Shown here: positions 13,945-39,814 of the stretch, piece by piece
Layout: every line of letters starts with the position of its first letter
Position numbering within the stretch: the first letter of the stretch is position 1
From: Halorubrum cibi
Lineage (GTDB): Archaea > Halobacteriota > Halobacteria > Halobacteriales > Haloferacaceae
DNA length: 64,000 nt
Direction of reading: 5' to 3'
NCBI RefSeq assembly: GCF_900182635.1
Contig: NZ_FXTD01000001.1
Span: 248,001 to 312,000 of the forward strand
Notes under the pieces: model-generated
Seen by the model: only the letters and a program-made list of their open reading frames with translations
What the model was told of the DNA's origin: nothing
Databases searched by the model: none
Position numbers and translations under genes: made by a program

Positions 13945-15768
13945 ATGTGTGGAATCATCGGCTACGTCGGCGACCGCCCCGCGCTGCCTATCCTCTCGAC
14001 CGGGCTCTCGAACCTGGAGTACCGGGGGTACGACTCTGCCGGGGTCGCGCTCACCGACGACGCGGTCTCGGTGTACAAGAAGTCGGGCGAAGTGAGCGAG
14101 CTTCAGGGAGTCCTCCCCGAGTCGACCGACCACACGCGGGGGATCGGCCACACCCGCTGGAGCACCCACGGCCCGCCGACGGACGGGAACGCGCACCCCC
14201 ACACGGACTGTACCGGGCGGGTCGCGGTCGTCCACAACGGGATCATCGAGAACTACGACGCGCTCCGCGAGGAGCTCTCGGACCACGAGTTCACGAGCGA
14301 CACTGACACGGAGGTCGTCCCGCACCTGATCGAGGAGTCGCTCGACGCGGGCGCGGAGCCGCGGGCGGCGGTCGAGGCCGCCGTCGACCGGCTCGAGGGC
14401 ACCTACGCGGTGGTCGTGACGATAGCCGGCGTCGACGAGGTGTACGCGACCCGCCGCGACAGCCCGCTCGTCGTCGGTCACGCCGAGGACGGGACGTTCC
14501 TCGCCAGCGACGTGACCGCCTTCCTCGAGCACACCCGCGAGGTGACCTACATCGAGGACGGCGACTTCGCCGTGATCGGCGACGACGGCCTCTCGCTGTA
14601 TCGGGACGGTGAGCCGGTGGACCCGACGGTCGAGACGCTCGAGTACGAGGCCGACGCCGCCGAGAAGAGCGGCTACGACCACTACATGTTGAAGGAGATC
14701 CACGAGCAGCCGCGGGCGCTCAGACAGACGATCTCCGGGCGGATCGACGCCGAGGACGGGACCGTCAACGTCGACGTCGACCTCCCGAGCGAGTACGTCG
14801 ACTCTGTCGATGAGATCCAGATAGTCGCCTGCGGCACCTCCAACTACGCGGGACGGTACGCCGCGGAACTGCTGGAGTCGATCGTCGACGTCCGCACGAC
14901 CGTGGAGGTCGCGAGCGAGTACGAGTTCGACGGCGGCCGCGACCCCTGGCGAACGCTCGTCGTCGCGGTGACTCAGAGCGGGGAGACTGCCGACACGCTC
15001 TCGGCGATCCGGCGGGCGAAACGCGCCGGCGCGCGGACGCTCGCCGTCACCAACACGCTCGGGAGCACGATCGTCCGCGAGACCGACGACAGCGTGTTCA
15101 TCCGCGCGGGCCCCGAGATCGGGGTGGCGGCGACGAAGACGTTCGCCTCGCAGGTGGCGACGCTGACGCTGCTCGCGGTCCACGTCGGTCGTGCCCGCGG
15201 GTCGCTGTCGTACGGGCGAGCGCGAGAGCTGCTGGAATCGGTCCGGAGGCTCCCGAACGCGATCCAGGGCGTCCTCGACCGCGAGGACCGGATTCGCGAG
15301 GTCGCCCGCGAGTACGCCGACAGCGACGCGTTCTTCTTCGTCGGGCGAAAGCTCGGACACCCGGTGGCGCTGGAGGGCGCGTTGAAGCTGAAGGAGATCT
15401 CCTACGACCACGCCGAGGGATTCGCCGCCGGCGAGTTGAAACACGGCCCGCTCGCGCTCGTCACCGAGGACACCCCCGTGTTGGCGCTCCTGACCGACGG
15501 CTCCCGGCCGGGTGAGACGCTGAACAACGTCAAGGAGGTCCAGGCGCGCGGCGCGCCCGTGATCGGCGCGGCGACCGCCGATGGCGACGGCGAGGCCGCG
15601 GCCGACTCGACGTACCTCGACGTCGAGTTGCCCGTCCCCGCTACCGGCGCGCTGGAGCCGCTCGTCGCCAACGTCTACTGGCAGCTGTTCGCCTACCACG
15701 TCGCCGACGAGAAGGGTCGCCCGATCGACCGACCGCGCAACCTCGCGAAGAGCGTGACGGTCGAGTAG
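13945..15768 (+). CDS. glmS: Glutamine-fructose-6-phosphate aminotransferase (isomerizing)
   Basis: 607 residues, the normal length. MCGIIGYVG supplies the N-terminal nucleophile Cys2 of the class II glutaminase domain, with TRWSTHG and HNGIIENY following. Two SIS domains (about 285-425 and 455-600) contain CGTSNYA, TQSGETADT and KTFASQ, and the C-terminus ends in NLAKSVTVE as in other GlmS proteins. It converts fructose-6-phosphate and glutamine to glucosamine-6-phosphate, the first step to UDP-GlcNAc. It is immediately downstream of the GlmU-like gene, so they form an operon. No glmS ribozyme-like leader is apparent, which is expected in archaea. Confidence 0.96.
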   Translation: MCGIIGYVGDRPALPILSTGLSNLEYRGYDSAGVALTDDAVSVYKKSGEVSELQGVLPESTDHTRGIGHTRWSTHGPPTDGNAHPHTDCTGRVAVVHNGIIENYDALREELSDHEFTSDTDTEVVPHLIEESLDAGAEPRAAVEAAVDRLEGTYAVVVTIAGVDEVYATRRDSPLVVGHAEDGTFLASDVTAFLEHTREVTYIEDGDFAVIGDDGLSLYRDGEPVDPTVETLEYEADAAEKSGYDHYMLKEIHEQPRALRQTISGRIDAEDGTVNVDVDLPSEYVDSVDEIQIVACGTSNYAGRYAAELLESIVDVRTTVEVASEYEFDGGRDPWRTLVVAVTQSGETADTLSAIRRAKRAGARTLAVTNTLGSTIVRETDDSVFIRAGPEIGVAATKTFASQVATLTLLAVHVGRARGSLSYGRARELLESVRRLPNAIQGVLDREDRIREVAREYADSDAFFFVGRKLGHPVALEGALKLKEISYDHAEGFAAGELKHGPLALVTEDTPVLALLTDGSRPGETLNNVKEVQARGAPVIGAATADGDGEAAADSTYLDVELPVPATGALEPLVANVYWQLFAYHVADEKGRPIDRPRNLAKSVTVE

Positions 15769-15833: not shown

Positions 15834-18179
15834 TCAGTCGTATCGGCCGAAGGCCTCACGCAGGTGCTCCGCGGACTCCTTGAGCCGCTCCGTGTACGCC
15901 GGCTCGTCCCAGGTCGGCGGGACGTACGCGACCGTGTCGAGCCGACCGCCCTCGATCCCGGGGACCGCGTGCGCGAGGTTCGTCGATCGCGAGTCGATCG
16001 GCTTCGCGGCGGTGGAGTCGGAACCGCCCTCACCGTCTGCCGGCACGTAGGTGGCGGCCGCGACGTCTATCGCCTCGAACGGCTCGTACGCGTCGACCCC
16101 GTCGGTCCAGAGGTCGCCGAGCCGCCGGCGTCGACTCGGGTCGGCGACGTTGAGGAGCAGCCACGGGAGCCGGATCTCGATCGCGTCCGTCGACGGCGAG
16201 ACGTGGACGTCCGCAAGCGAGTCGTACTCGGGCGAGTCGGGGTTTCCGTTCCCGTAGCGGAGCGCGCCCGTCTCGACCGACTGGAACGGGACCCGCTCGC
16301 CGGTCGGCGGGATCGTGTACCCGCGACCGATCGTCATCCGAAGCGGCGCGAACGCGCCGGGGTCGGGGTCGCGGTACGCTGAGAGGTCCAGCCCCGCCTC
16401 CGCGCCGTACAGGTACGCGAACGCGTCGTAGCGGGGGTGGACCGTCACGCGGGAGTCGTCGGGACCGCCGAGCCGGACGACGAAATCGGTCGACGACGAG
16501 ACCGCGTCGACGCCGTGGGGGAGTTCCACCCCGCTCCGACCGGTCAGGCCGAGCGTGACGAGGTAGTTGGTCCGATCCCAGTCGACCCCGCCGCCGTCGC
16601 CCCCCGTACCGCCGATGTCGGCGAGCTCGAGCCGGATCGAGAGGTACGCGGCGTCGCTCGTGACCCGGAGCGCGGTCAGTTCGCGGTCGCCGTCCGCGCC
16701 GTCTGCGCCGTCCGCGCCGTCTGCGCCACTCGAGCCGTCGTCGACTCGGACCGGTGAGCCGGCCGACGTCGCCGCGGTCGCGTCGGTCCACGCGCCTTCG
16801 GAGCCGTCGAGCGGGACCCCGTTCGCCGGGTCGAACGTGAGCAGGCCGAACCCCTGTTCCGGCGTCTGGACGTTCGACCACTCCGGCCGGCGGTTCGAGT
16901 CCGAGACGGGGGCGAGGTTCCACGTCCGCTTGAACCACTCGTCGTGCCAGCTGAAGACGAGTCCCCCGGCCGCGCCGACCTCGCGGACGTCCTCGTACAT
17001 CGCCGCGACGATCTCCCCCTGCTCGTTTTCGGTGTGTCGACCCTGATCGCGGCCGTGGACGTGTCGCTGAGCGATCCCCCGCGAGTCCGGGACGCCGAAC
17101 TCGGCGACGACGAGCGGGTGGTCAGTCGTGCCGACCAGGTCGTTCAGGTAGCCGGCGTAGCTGTTGGGCTCGCCGCGATGGTCGACGTAGTTCGCGTACT
17201 CGGGCGTCTCGTTGAGCAGCGGCGGATAGTACGGGTAGACGTGGTACGCCGCGAACGTGCCCGCGTCGTAGGCGTCGGTCGCGACGACGGCGTCGGGATC
17301 GACGGTGACCGCGTCCTCCGCCTCGAACGGCTCGTAGGGGTGCGAGAGCGGGTCGGTCGTCACCCAGTTCGTGAACGCCGCCGGGCGTTGGGTCCCGTAC
17401 TCATCGATCTCGTGGGCCACCGCCCGATCGAGCCGCTCGGCGAGCCAGCGCTCGAAGGGACGATCGACGGTCGAGGAGAGGTACTCGCCGTCGTACGCGC
17501 CCGGATCGTTCGCCCGGTTCGTCTCGGCGACGACGGTCGGCGGCCACTCGATCCCGGCGATGTAGCCGAGGACGACGTCGCTCACGTCGGCGTCGTACGT
17601 CCCGCTGGCGTGGCCGGGCTCCGGATCGAGCGTCGTCGCGCCGTGAACGACGTCGACCGCCTGCCGGAGCGACCGGTCGAACTCCGCGGAGAGCGCGAAG
17701 GCGTCTCCGGCGTCGGCCAGGAGTTCCTCGCCGATCCAGTTGCCGTGGAGGAGGTGGATCGGGTCCGCGTGCTCCCGGTTGTACGCAGCGAGCGCGCGGT
17801 AGAACGCCGGCGGGTGGACCGTGTACACCCGGACGACGTTGACGTTCAGCTCTCCCATCCACGCGAGCCACCGGTCGTACTCCTCGCGGGTGATCGCCGC
17901 CTCGCCGGGGAAGCGTCCGGGCTTGGCCATTCCGAGGTTCACCCCGCGCGGAACGAACGCCTCGAACGGCCCGCCGTCGACGGAGACTGCGAATCCGTCG
18001 TCGACGACGCGGACGCGTCGGTCGGGGCCGTCGGACTGGCCGGGGTCGTCACCCGCCCCGTCGTCTCCGCCCCCGGCGTCATCGGGTCCGCTCTCGCCCC
18101 CCCCCGTCGGTTCCGCTGCCGTCGCCGTCCGATCCGGCACGGAACCCGCAGCCGGCGGTTCCGACCGCGCCGGCGGCAC
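15834..18179 (-). CDS. Exported glycoside hydrolase-like protein with out-of-frame Tat-lipobox signal
   Basis: The open frame encodes up to 781 residues. Residues about 55-440 resemble a TIM-barrel glycosidase (LNVNVVRVYTVHPP, GYIAGIEW around Glu211, and LVVAEFG with candidate nucleophile Glu360). A GAD-repeat linker near 485 leads to a beta-rich C-terminal region. The start at 18179 lies in a Pro/Ala-rich stretch and gives no signal. In the neighbouring frame a GTG at 18210 begins NRRAFLGRM...GTAGC, a typical Tat signal with lipobox. The two frames would join if the run of nine C at 18097-18105 had eight. Either a sequencing error or a real frameshift is possible. Substrate unknown. Confidence 0.68.
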   Translation of the reverse strand: MPPARSEPPAAGSVPDRTATAAEPTGGGESGPDDAGGGDDGAGDDPGQSDGPDRRVRVVDDGFAVSVDGGPFEAFVPRGVNLGMAKPGRFPGEAAITREEYDRWLAWMGELNVNVVRVYTVHPPAFYRALAAYNREHADPIHLLHGNWIGEELLADAGDAFALSAEFDRSLRQAVDVVHGATTLDPEPGHASGTYDADVSDVVLGYIAGIEWPPTVVAETNRANDPGAYDGEYLSSTVDRPFERWLAERLDRAVAHEIDEYGTQRPAAFTNWVTTDPLSHPYEPFEAEDAVTVDPDAVVATDAYDAGTFAAYHVYPYYPPLLNETPEYANYVDHRGEPNSYAGYLNDLVGTTDHPLVVAEFGVPDSRGIAQRHVHGRDQGRHTENEQGEIVAAMYEDVREVGAAGGLVFSWHDEWFKRTWNLAPVSDSNRRPEWSNVQTPEQGFGLLTFDPANGVPLDGSEGAWTDATAATSAGSPVRVDDGSSGADGADGADGADGDRELTALRVTSDAAYLSIRLELADIGGTGGDGGGVDWDRTNYLVTLGLTGRSGVELPHGVDAVSSSTDFVVRLGGPDDSRVTVHPRYDAFAYLYGAEAGLDLSAYRDPDPGAFAPLRMTIGRGYTIPPTGERVPFQSVETGALRYGNGNPDSPEYDSLADVHVSPSTDAIEIRLPWLLLNVADPSRRRRLGDLWTDGVDAYEPFEAIDVAAATYVPADGEGGSDSTAAKPIDSRSTNLAHAVPGIEGGRLDTVAYVPPTWDEPAYTERLKESAEHLREAFGRYD
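18097..18105. repeat. Nine-C homopolymer at apparent frameshift
   Basis: Nine consecutive C on the plus strand (nine G in the mRNA of the glycosidase-like gene). Loss of one base would fuse the Tat-lipobox leader starting at 18210 in frame with the main ORF; with nine the leader frame stops shortly after. Short homopolymers are prone to both sequencing error and slippage. Confidence 0.8.
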
Positions 18180-18328
18180 CCATCCTGCCGAGGAACGCGC
18201 GTCTGTTCACGGAGAATCCACTCGCTGGGGAGGGAAAACCCTGCTCCCGGCGTGACGCGTCGGCGAACGTCTCGGTTTTTTTTCACCCGGCGTCGACAAC
18301 GTCGGCGACGACCCTCCCGAGCACGACC

Positions 18329-19549
18329 ATGAACACCGAGCCCGACCACTCCAACCCGTTCGAGAGCCTCCTCCGGCTTGCCGACGCCGACCTCACACCC
18401 GAAGAGCGGATCCGCCGCGCGATCGACGTCGGCCGCGAGTACCTCGACGTCGACAACGGCGTCCTCTCGTACACCGCCGAGGGGCGCTACGAGGTTATCA
18501 GCACGAACATCGACTCCGGTCCCTACGCCGAGGGCGGGATCGTCGATCTCGACGGAACGTGGTGTCGCCACGTCGTCACGGACGGCGAGATGATCGGATT
18601 CGCCGACGCCGCGGAGAGTCCGTACCGCGACGACCGCGCGCTCGGGATCACCGGGCTGAATTGTTACGTCGGCGCACCCGTCGAGATCGACGGGGAGACG
18701 TACGGGACGCTGTGTTTCTCTGACGAGGACGCGAGAGAGGAACCGATCACCGAGCGGGAGCGCGACTTCGTCTCCGTGCTCGCCGACTGGGTCGGCCACG
18801 AGCTCGAACGCGACGAGGTCGACCTGGAAGCGTTAGTTTTCGACGCTTGGGAGACCGTCCGGACCCAGAACGGCTATCCGTCAGCCGTTCCCAGTCGAGG
18901 TATGTTCACCGGCATCGTCGAAGGAACCGGGACCGTCCGGACGCGAACCGAGACGGCAGACGGCCTTCGGCTGCGGATCGGCGTCGACGGCGTCGACGGC
19001 TTCGACGACCTCGCTCACGGCCAGTCGATAAGCGTGAGCGGCGTCTGTCTGACCGTCGAGGAGCACGGGAGGGCTGCTGACTCCGGCGGCGGGGCGACCG
19101 CACCCGCGAACGGGACGGGTGCCTGGTTCGAGGTCTTCCTCGCCGCGGAGACGGTCGCGAAGACGTACCTCGGGGACCTCCGTGCCGGCGACGCGGTCAA
19201 CCTCGAGCGCGCGATGCCCGCCGACGGGCGGTTCGACGGCCACGTCGTCCAGGGACACGTCGACACGGTGGCCGAGGTTCGGGCGATCGAGCGCGTCGGC
19301 GAGGACTGGCGGTTCACCTTCTCGATCCCGGAGGGACACGGCCGCTACCTCGTCGACAAGGGGTCGGTGACGCTCGACGGGATCTCGCTCACGATCGCCG
19401 AGAAGCGCGACAAGGTCTTCGACGTGGCGATCATCCCGACGACCTACGAGTTGACGACGCTCTCGGAGAAGTCCGCCGGGGATCCGGTCCACCTGGAGGT
19501 CGACGTGATCGCGAAGTACGTCGAGAACATGCTCGACGGCTACGCGTAG
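18329..19549 (+). CDS. GAF domain fused to riboflavin synthase (possibly two genes)
   Basis: 406 residues in one open frame. Residues about 10-170 are a GAF domain (DVDNGVLSYT, WCRHVV, YVGAPVEIDGETYGTLCF), often found in haloarchaeal signalling proteins. After a short linker comes MFTGIVEGTGTV at residue 192 (base 18902), the canonical N-terminus of riboflavin synthase RibE, with both lumazine-binding halves (SGVCLTV; VTLDGISLTI) and FDGHVVQGHVD. RibE converts two dimethylribityllumazine to riboflavin. Riboflavin synthase normally starts at that Met, so this may be a genuine fusion, or two genes with a lost stop. The RibE half has a Gly/Ala-rich insert near residue 255. Confidence 0.75.
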   Translation: MNTEPDHSNPFESLLRLADADLTPEERIRRAIDVGREYLDVDNGVLSYTAEGRYEVISTNIDSGPYAEGGIVDLDGTWCRHVVTDGEMIGFADAAESPYRDDRALGITGLNCYVGAPVEIDGETYGTLCFSDEDAREEPITERERDFVSVLADWVGHELERDEVDLEALVFDAWETVRTQNGYPSAVPSRGMFTGIVEGTGTVRTRTETADGLRLRIGVDGVDGFDDLAHGQSISVSGVCLTVEEHGRAADSGGGATAPANGTGAWFEVFLAAETVAKTYLGDLRAGDAVNLERAMPADGRFDGHVVQGHVDTVAEVRAIERVGEDWRFTFSIPEGHGRYLVDKGSVTLDGISLTIAEKRDKVFDVAIIPTTYELTTLSEKSAGDPVHLEVDVIAKYVENMLDGYA

Positions 19550-38831: not shown

Positions 38832-39572
38832 ATGAGCGACGAGTTCGACAAGGAAGCGGAACGCGAGAAGCTCCGCGAGAAGTTCGCTGAAGACGAGAAG
38901 AAACGCGAACACACCCAGCGGATGTCCGAGCTGCTCTTACAGGGCGCGACGATGACGAACCGCCACTGCGACACGTGTGGCGACCCGATATTCCGGCACG
39001 ACGGCCGGGAGTTCTGCCCGACGTGTCACGCGACGGAGGACGGATTCGAAGTGCCCGCGGCCGACGAGACCGGAGCGGAGGAGGCGGAACCGACCGCGGA
39101 CGCCGGAGGTACCGCGTCCTCGGCAACGACCGAGAACCGACCGGAGTCGGCGGCCGGCGGCGGCGATCCGACCGCCAGGAACGCCGCCACCGGAAACGTC
39201 GCCACCGGAAACGTCGCCACCGGAAACGTCGCCACCGGAAACGCCGCCGCGAGGGATGCCGCCGCGAGGGACGCCGCCGCGACTGACGCGGAATCGACCG
39301 GCTTCGATGGCGCTCGCGACGCTCCCGAGGAGGTCAGCGGGCGGTCGCCGTCGACGCCGGACGCGGGGTCGCGAACCGCGGCCGGTGAATCCACGCCCGG
39401 TGGAACCTCGAGCGACGACGCGGCCGGCGGGGTCGCCGCCGCCCGCGAGTCGCTGACGCGGACGCTGAACCGGTTCGCCCGCGCGGCGGAGGAGACGGAC
39501 GACCCGCGCCGCGCCCGCGATCACCTGCGGGCGGCGCGGGAGGCGGCGGAGGCGCTCGCGGCGCTCGACTGA
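38832..39572 (+). CDS. Autoantigen p27-like zinc-finger protein with VATGN repeats
   Basis: 246 residues. The N-terminal 75 residues are helical with MSELLLQGATMTNRHCDTCGDPIF and FCPTCHA, two CxxC pairs that make a zinc finger of the Sjogren's syndrome/scleroderma autoantigen 1 family common in archaea. The middle is a low-complexity region with VATGN repeats (15-bp units at 39186-39245), and residues about 185-246 are a C-terminal Ala/Arg/Glu helix bundle. Function unknown. The start at 38832 fits the domain boundary. Confidence 0.83.
   Translation: MSDEFDKEAEREKLREKFAEDEKKREHTQRMSELLLQGATMTNRHCDTCGDPIFRHDGREFCPTCHATEDGFEVPAADETGAEEAEPTADAGGTASSATTENRPESAAGGGDPTARNAATGNVATGNVATGNVATGNAAARDAAARDAAATDAESTGFDGARDAPEEVSGRSPSTPDAGSRTAAGESTPGGTSSDDAAGGVAAARESLTRTLNRFARAAEETDDPRRARDHLRAAREAAEALAALD
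39186..39245 (+). repeat. Four 15-bp tandem repeats in the p27-like gene
   Basis: Four consecutive 15-base units of GCCACCGGAAACGTC, the last ending GCC, encode VATGN-type pentapeptides. The near-perfect DNA identity implies recent expansion, and length may vary between strains without frameshift. Confidence 0.85.
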
Positions 39573-39593
39573 CGGATCCGTTCATGAACCGTT

Positions 39594-39637
39594 GCCGGCG
39601 GCGGAGCCGCCGGCTTTCCCGTGGCGCATAGCGCCAC
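39594..39637. terminator. Two adjacent perfect hairpins between convergent genes
   Basis: GCCGGCGGC/GCCGCCGGC (9-bp stem, 3-base loop, 39594-39614) and GTGGCGC/GCGCCAC (7-bp stem, 3-base loop, 39621-39637). They lie between the convergent p27-like and glmM genes, where bidirectional termination is expected, but no T-tract follows, so a repeat-element role is equally possible. Confidence 0.45.
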
Positions 39638-39658
39638 GCTGCTTGCGTCACGCGTCTT

Positions 39659-39814
39659 CGCCCTCGCGACTGCCCCTTTGAGTCCCACCCCGCCCCGCAC
39701 AGCAACCGCACCTCACGCCTCCCCAGCCTCGTCGGCCGCCCTCCGCGTTGCTCCGGCCGGCCGACTCCCTCGCGGGCGCGGCGCGGGTCGTCGGGCCGCT
39801 CAGAGGCGCGCCGG
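39659..39814. repeat. Dispersed intergenic repeat, copy A
   Basis: The core 39659-39731 shares a 31-base segment with one mismatch (CTGCCCCTTTGAGTCCCACC is part of it) and a 26-base identical segment (ACCTCACGCCTCCCCAGCC is part of it) with copy B at 55551-55615. Both copies end near GGCGCGCC. It is non-coding, lies between convergent genes, and follows two hairpins. From memory, similar sequence is repeated in Halorubrum genomes. Confidence 0.75.

Follow-up and report, generated by a model that had tools for sequence, protein, structure and literature searches.

Gene organization at the locus

We analyzed a 64,000-nucleotide stretch of DNA (hereafter the window) from a 3.18 Mb Halorubrum genome assembled in 35 contigs, some of whose records may be absent from the data used. 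A leader ORF starts on the minus strand with the GTG at 18210. As assembled (18079–18210), it encodes 43 residues before a stop and reads VNRRAFLGRMGAAGAVGTAGC followed by GFRAGSDGDGSGTDGGGRERTR; translated in full from 18210 to 18079, it gives VNRRAFLGRMGAAGAVGTAGCGFRAGSDGDGSGTDGGGRERTR and the stop. Its first part (18148–18210, minus strand) is a Tat signal peptide up to the lipobox cysteine, with the twin-arginine motif RRxFL at the N terminus (VNRRAFL), TAGC at the lipobox, and 16 residues between the second arginine and the cysteine. Downstream, within a linker of Gly, Asp and Ser, lies a run of nine G on the coding strand (C9 on the plus strand, 18097–18105), and it is here that the frame changes. 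The body of a glycosidase-like lipoprotein follows in its conserved frame (15834–18095, minus strand; 753 aa and a stop). That frame also forms part of a 781-aa ORF (15834–18179, minus strand), which is out of frame with the leader; its first residues (MPPARSEPP...) are the leader region read off-frame, and the GTG that opens it (18177–18179, minus strand), an off-frame start within the leader, is probably unused. The original prediction had placed the C9 run, the leader from GTG 18210 and a 781-aa ORF in a different frame at exactly these positions.

A weak TATA-like stretch, TTTT (18235–18238, minus strand), stands 25–28 bases upstream of GTG 18210, with TTT at the aligned columns in the four nearest relatives, and may act as the promoter. 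The enzyme gene is flanked on its 3′ side by a convergent glmS-like gene (13945–15768) and on its 5′ side by a divergent GAF/lumazine-binding gene (18329–19549). The C9 is the sole G/C run of at least 8 in the window. An order-2 model gives an expectation of about 0.17 runs of at least 9 per window versus the one observed; the mere presence of the run in the window is unremarkable.

The TIGR01409 profile scored 15.6 and 15.3 bits on the leader against a cut-off of 16.7. The profile is an indicator of such leaders and not their definition, nor did it match two orthologues with the leader in frame (L026 and L027). The distance from the second arginine to the lipobox cysteine falls within the 12–21 residues published for the TatLipo class (PMC2945643).

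Conservation of the leader and the G run in Halorubrum

The enzyme body was present in 18 of the 52 Halorubrum genomes searched, the window's own included. At all 17 other loci, an RRxFL-bearing Tat leader with a cysteine lipobox (GTAGC) stands in the body frame, so that leader and mature protein share one frame everywhere but in the window assembly. The 16-residue spacing recurs in 16 of the 17 orthologues measured; the remaining one (L023) was missed by the spacing pattern, and its leader was seen in a direct reading of the 5′ end. Because 17/17 other loci carry the leader in the body frame, its link to the body is not a chance one. The leader belongs to the glycosidase, as originally proposed, and orthologues without a Tat leader, the outcome named in advance as speaking against this, were not among the 17. 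The assignment as a Tat lipoprotein applies to the lineage of the gene and not to the assembled copy.

The G run is not shared in the same way. None of the 17 other loci has a G run of at least 6 near the leader, and among the 16 orthologues measured the longest G run in the linker was 2–5. In a DNA alignment with the four nearest relatives, which are 86–89% identical to the window copy, a single-base gap falls exactly at the tract, and the relatives' G runs are broken by A, C or T. These interruptions and the one-base gap imply that the run was built by substitutions in the window lineage and that the frame change amounts to one base at the run. The earlier proposal that a one-base difference in length would join the two frames is borne out by the same gap. 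No second copy of the tract site was found in IMG/VR.

Selection on the enzyme body and frame breaks elsewhere

The reading frame of the body is open over all 753 codons. Pairwise dN/dS of the body against the four nearest relatives was 0.27–0.36, and the lineage-specific N/S of the window copy was the lowest of the five (0.294; others 0.417–1.25). An old pseudogene is ruled out by this intact body and low N/S. Since the body is under purifying selection, with the lowest N/S of the five, any break must be recent.

Two of the 17 other orthologues carry one frame break each, elsewhere in the gene and at non-homopolymer places (L025 in genome G007, near locus position 1809; L023 in genome G043, near C146:7489). 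In all, 3/18 copies of the enzyme gene are broken, whereas the two control genes show no break in 35 copies (one-sided Fisher test, p 0.035). The break is the reason the window genome was selected, and with that genome excluded the comparison becomes 2/17 versus 0/33 (p 0.11). The controls are only the two neighboring genes, with 17 and 18 copies. For the glmS control, one genome (G025) gave no match at the cut-off, and another (G012) has two incomplete glmS-like pieces on a different contig, which were not scored as a split. The excess over the controls is no more than a hint of repeated loss of the enzyme; it favors a real mutation, although the G007 and G043 breaks might themselves be errors. 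Over the stretch syntenic with genome G001, the tract itself was the one frame split among 17 G001 ORFs with matches, and the reverse comparison gave no split among 16 window ORFs with matches; a strict ORF filter confined these comparisons to just those 17 and 16 ORFs.

Fold and distribution of the enzyme

No Pfam or NCBIfam family was found for the window protein. Scattered Pfam matches appeared among the other members of a 25-sequence alignment (the window, 12 Halorubrum, 8 Bacillus-group and 4 Clostridia-type sequences; H. coriense L036 was excluded for a frame break), namely GH113 in 5/25 (best E 0.0039) and Glyco_hydro_72 in 1/25 (best E 0.00015). An AlphaFold2 model (mean pLDDT 73.3, pTM 0.77) shows a (beta/alpha)8 barrel whose best matches are clan GH-A enzymes. 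The top fold match was LaGH157 (PDB 9g4n/9g5g/9fz9; Z 26.3, 304 residues aligned, rmsd 3.0), at only 14% identity; an hmmsearch against it gave a weak match over one 80-position stretch (E 0.015), and the window enzyme differs further in having an extra C-terminal region. Other clan GH-A enzymes, with the barrel common to all, matched at Z of about 23–24, including GH2 beta-glucuronidases (about 24) and a GH5 mannanase. On the strength of the model, the enzyme is best described as a predicted clan GH-A barrel nearest to GH157. We withheld assignment to GH157 itself, given that many clan GH-A enzymes score Z of about 23–24 through the shared barrel.

Two glutamates of the body are invariant in all 25 aligned sequences. 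E183 (GIEW; 17547–17549, minus strand, codon checked) we take, by analogy with clan GH-A, to be the candidate acid/base. E332 (AEFG; 17100–17102, minus strand) corresponds, through the weak sequence match, to LaGH157 E224, which is mutated in PDB 9g4n. The two probably form the catalytic pair.

Outside Halorubrum, homologues of the body (L039–L050) occur in the Bacillus group, with about 40% identity, and in Clostridia-type genomes, with 32–37%. This patchy spread, together with presence in 18/52 Halorubrum genomes, suggests lateral transfer. The two Bacillus-group homologues whose flanks were read are 1082–1091 aa long and have an N-terminal hydrophobic segment. Beside one homologue gene (L039) lie genes for a HEAT-repeat protein, a family 2 glycosyltransferase and a response regulator, a neighborhood that points to a role in exopolysaccharide in Bacillus; the glmS and nucleotidyltransferase genes near the Halorubrum gene may point in the same direction.

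Long G runs in the genome and the genus

The tract is the sole 9-mer G run in its genome, and there are three other 8-mers. All three sit inside intact open genes that do not resemble surface proteins: a panE-like and an xseA-like gene (Pfam), and an open 692-aa frame, presumably glycyl-tRNA synthetase. We then scored coding frames, by codon score, on both sides of 26 distinct G/C runs of at least 7, taken from the first 30 listed of 96 places and lying on contigs C1 and C2 only. Fourteen had one frame on both sides, four had the same strand in a different frame, four were coding on one side, two had opposite strands and two were noncoding. Three of the four different-frame runs are gene boundaries, leaving the G9 tract as the only frame break among the 26. 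Generally poor assembly at G runs is ruled out by the three other 8-mers in open genes and by this single break in 26 runs.

Across the genus, 47 of the 52 genomes have at least one G9 run. Of 30 sampled G9 loci (one per genome, some at contig ends), only the window's own and L072 showed coding signal on either side of the run on one strand but in different frames; L072 is a gene boundary. Overlapping G9 matches exceed 100 in some Halorubrum genomes (206 in G003, 123 in G044 and 358 in G047). Long G runs seem scarce across the window's own genome (G000), with 4 runs of at least 8 versus about 40 expected by a rough scaling of the window's order-2 expectation to 3.18 Mb.

Separately from the enzyme locus, the window holds at 39718–39733 (minus strand; surroundings 39560–39780) a copy of a multicopy Halorubrum intergenic element, the 16-mer GACGAGGCTGGGGAGG. 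The 16-mer is present on both strands in 51/52 genomes of the genus, as many as about 125 times in one genome, and the reversed control gave 0 matches. In 11 contexts it was often preceded by a stem whose arms vary between copies yet look complementary, and the copies seen continue downstream as cgtgaggtgcgg...ggactcaaaggggcag. At another locus (L053, 1500–1528), the abundant G9 matches noted above take the form of a C12-G16 palindrome lying immediately 5′ of the element. The window copy had no Rfam match, and the element's sequence was not found for any archaeon in the literature searched.

Origin of the frame change

Taken together, these results make it very probable that the G run, incidental and private to the lineage, slipped by one base, whether in the data or in the strain as cultured. 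The gene would be that of an ordinary surface lipoprotein, whose leader from GTG 18210 would take the protein, once folded, through the Tat pore and whose lipobox cysteine would anchor it outside the membrane; the remainder would act as a glycoside hydrolase of clan GH-A. Substitutions in the glycine-rich linker would have built an unbroken G run in the window lineage, and a single slip would then have shifted the assembled run by one base relative to the frame that all relatives use.

The original prediction offered two explanations, a sequencing error or a slippage site. The first survives, and a third that it lacked, a recent ordinary frameshift mutation, has to be set beside it. We put the chance that the slip arose in the sequencing or assembly process at close to even. 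Published practice favors this source: singleton frameshifts validated by homology are treated mostly as sequencing errors in the account given in PMC3711429, and indels in poly-C/poly-G on re-sequencing of Halobacterium are ascribed to likely sequencing error in that of PMC11834397. That the strain in culture mutated recently, separating the enzyme from its leader, is a serious possibility to which we give a somewhat smaller share. In its favor, the remaining long G runs that were checked keep their frame in the assembly, which counts against poor assembly, though the tract is the only 9-mer.

The slippage site had been envisaged as a switch, in which reversible replication slippage in the G run turns surface display on (in frame) or off (leader peptide alone). 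What speaks for such a switch is the run itself, and only the run: it is the longest G run of the genome, lies toward the 5′ end of a gene for a surface protein, directly after the signal peptide, and is out of frame with an intact, constrained body. Switch tracts of other organisms can be located just after the signal peptide, and a single assembly would look alike under a switch. The run, however, is kept at none of the 17 other loci, and the tracts examined in the genome include no second one that breaks a frame. A contingency tract ought to recur in relatives or at sister loci. No sister loci were found, and since the other three G8 runs lie within intact genes unlike those of surface proteins, the genome has no set of slippage tracts. 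Polyploidy should work against it as well. Haloarchaea that have been studied are polyploid, and in Haloferax volcanii the genome copies are evened out by gene conversion without selection (PMC4056108), so a slip in a single copy would be diluted and phase variation damped. As reported in PMC2831843, poly(C)/poly(G) tracts, unlike poly(A)/poly(T), are not significantly closer to gene starts. The switch is improbable on this evidence, and we give equally little credence to the evolution of a private poly-G contingency tract behind a signal peptide, switching display of a surface glycosidase in a polyploid haloarchaeon. If shown, the switch would mean that a polyploid archaeon has a surface protein made phase-variable by poly-G; we recognized no such case in the literature searched.

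Recoding, in which slippage of the ribosome or RNA polymerase on the G run would yield some full-length lipoprotein from the out-of-frame gene, is very unlikely. A long homopolymer is present, and one archaeal glycosidase gene, S. solfataricus fucA, is known to use -1 frameshifting, as described in PMC8211752. The shift required here is nevertheless the skip of one base, unlike the -1 case, and the slippery site is not conserved among homologues; relatives are in frame where the run is absent, so the gene does not need recoding. Just as doubtful is a protein that is no longer a lipoprotein, being either a decaying pseudogene or a cytoplasmic body made from GTG 18179, to which the body ORF reaches, or from one of the internal GTG/ATG codons available from 17942 onward: constraint on the body is unrelaxed, the start at 18179 falls in off-frame leader sequence, the first internal starts lie at body residues 52 and 56, adjoining the invariant G51, V52 and G55, and the N-terminal hydrophobic segment of the two Bacillus-group homologues suggests an external place there too.

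The gene should be annotated as encoding a Tat lipoprotein whose frame is in question, rather than an enzyme of 781 aa that lacks a leader. Should the slip be real, the strain is without a surface glycosidase retained by its relatives, and the 3/18 broken copies would suggest that the enzyme is often dispensable.

Comparison with known systems

The leader resembles those of haloarchaeal Tat lipoproteins as set out in the TatLipo description (PMC2945643) in its RRxFL motif, 16-residue spacing, lipobox ending in AGC and hydrophilic linker; it differs in that leader and body are in different frames in the assembled copy and in having TAGC where LAGC is commonest. Poly-G phase-variable genes, exemplified by HmbR and HpuAB of Neisseria in PMC3786947, likewise have an out-of-frame G run in the coding region of a surface protein, whereas here the run is not kept in relatives and no sister loci were found. 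There is also a likeness to the singleton homopolymer frameshifts treated in PMC3711429, where the frame transition is validated by homologues, occurs in one genome only and lies at a homopolymer; in our case the other long G runs examined are in frame, so generally poor assembly is not the cause. The chitinase of Pyrococcus furiosus (PMC3575233) is also an archaeal glycosidase whose gene is split by a one-base insertion, is intact in a relative and still has a conserved body, but there the insertion divides parts of the enzyme and not the leader from the body.
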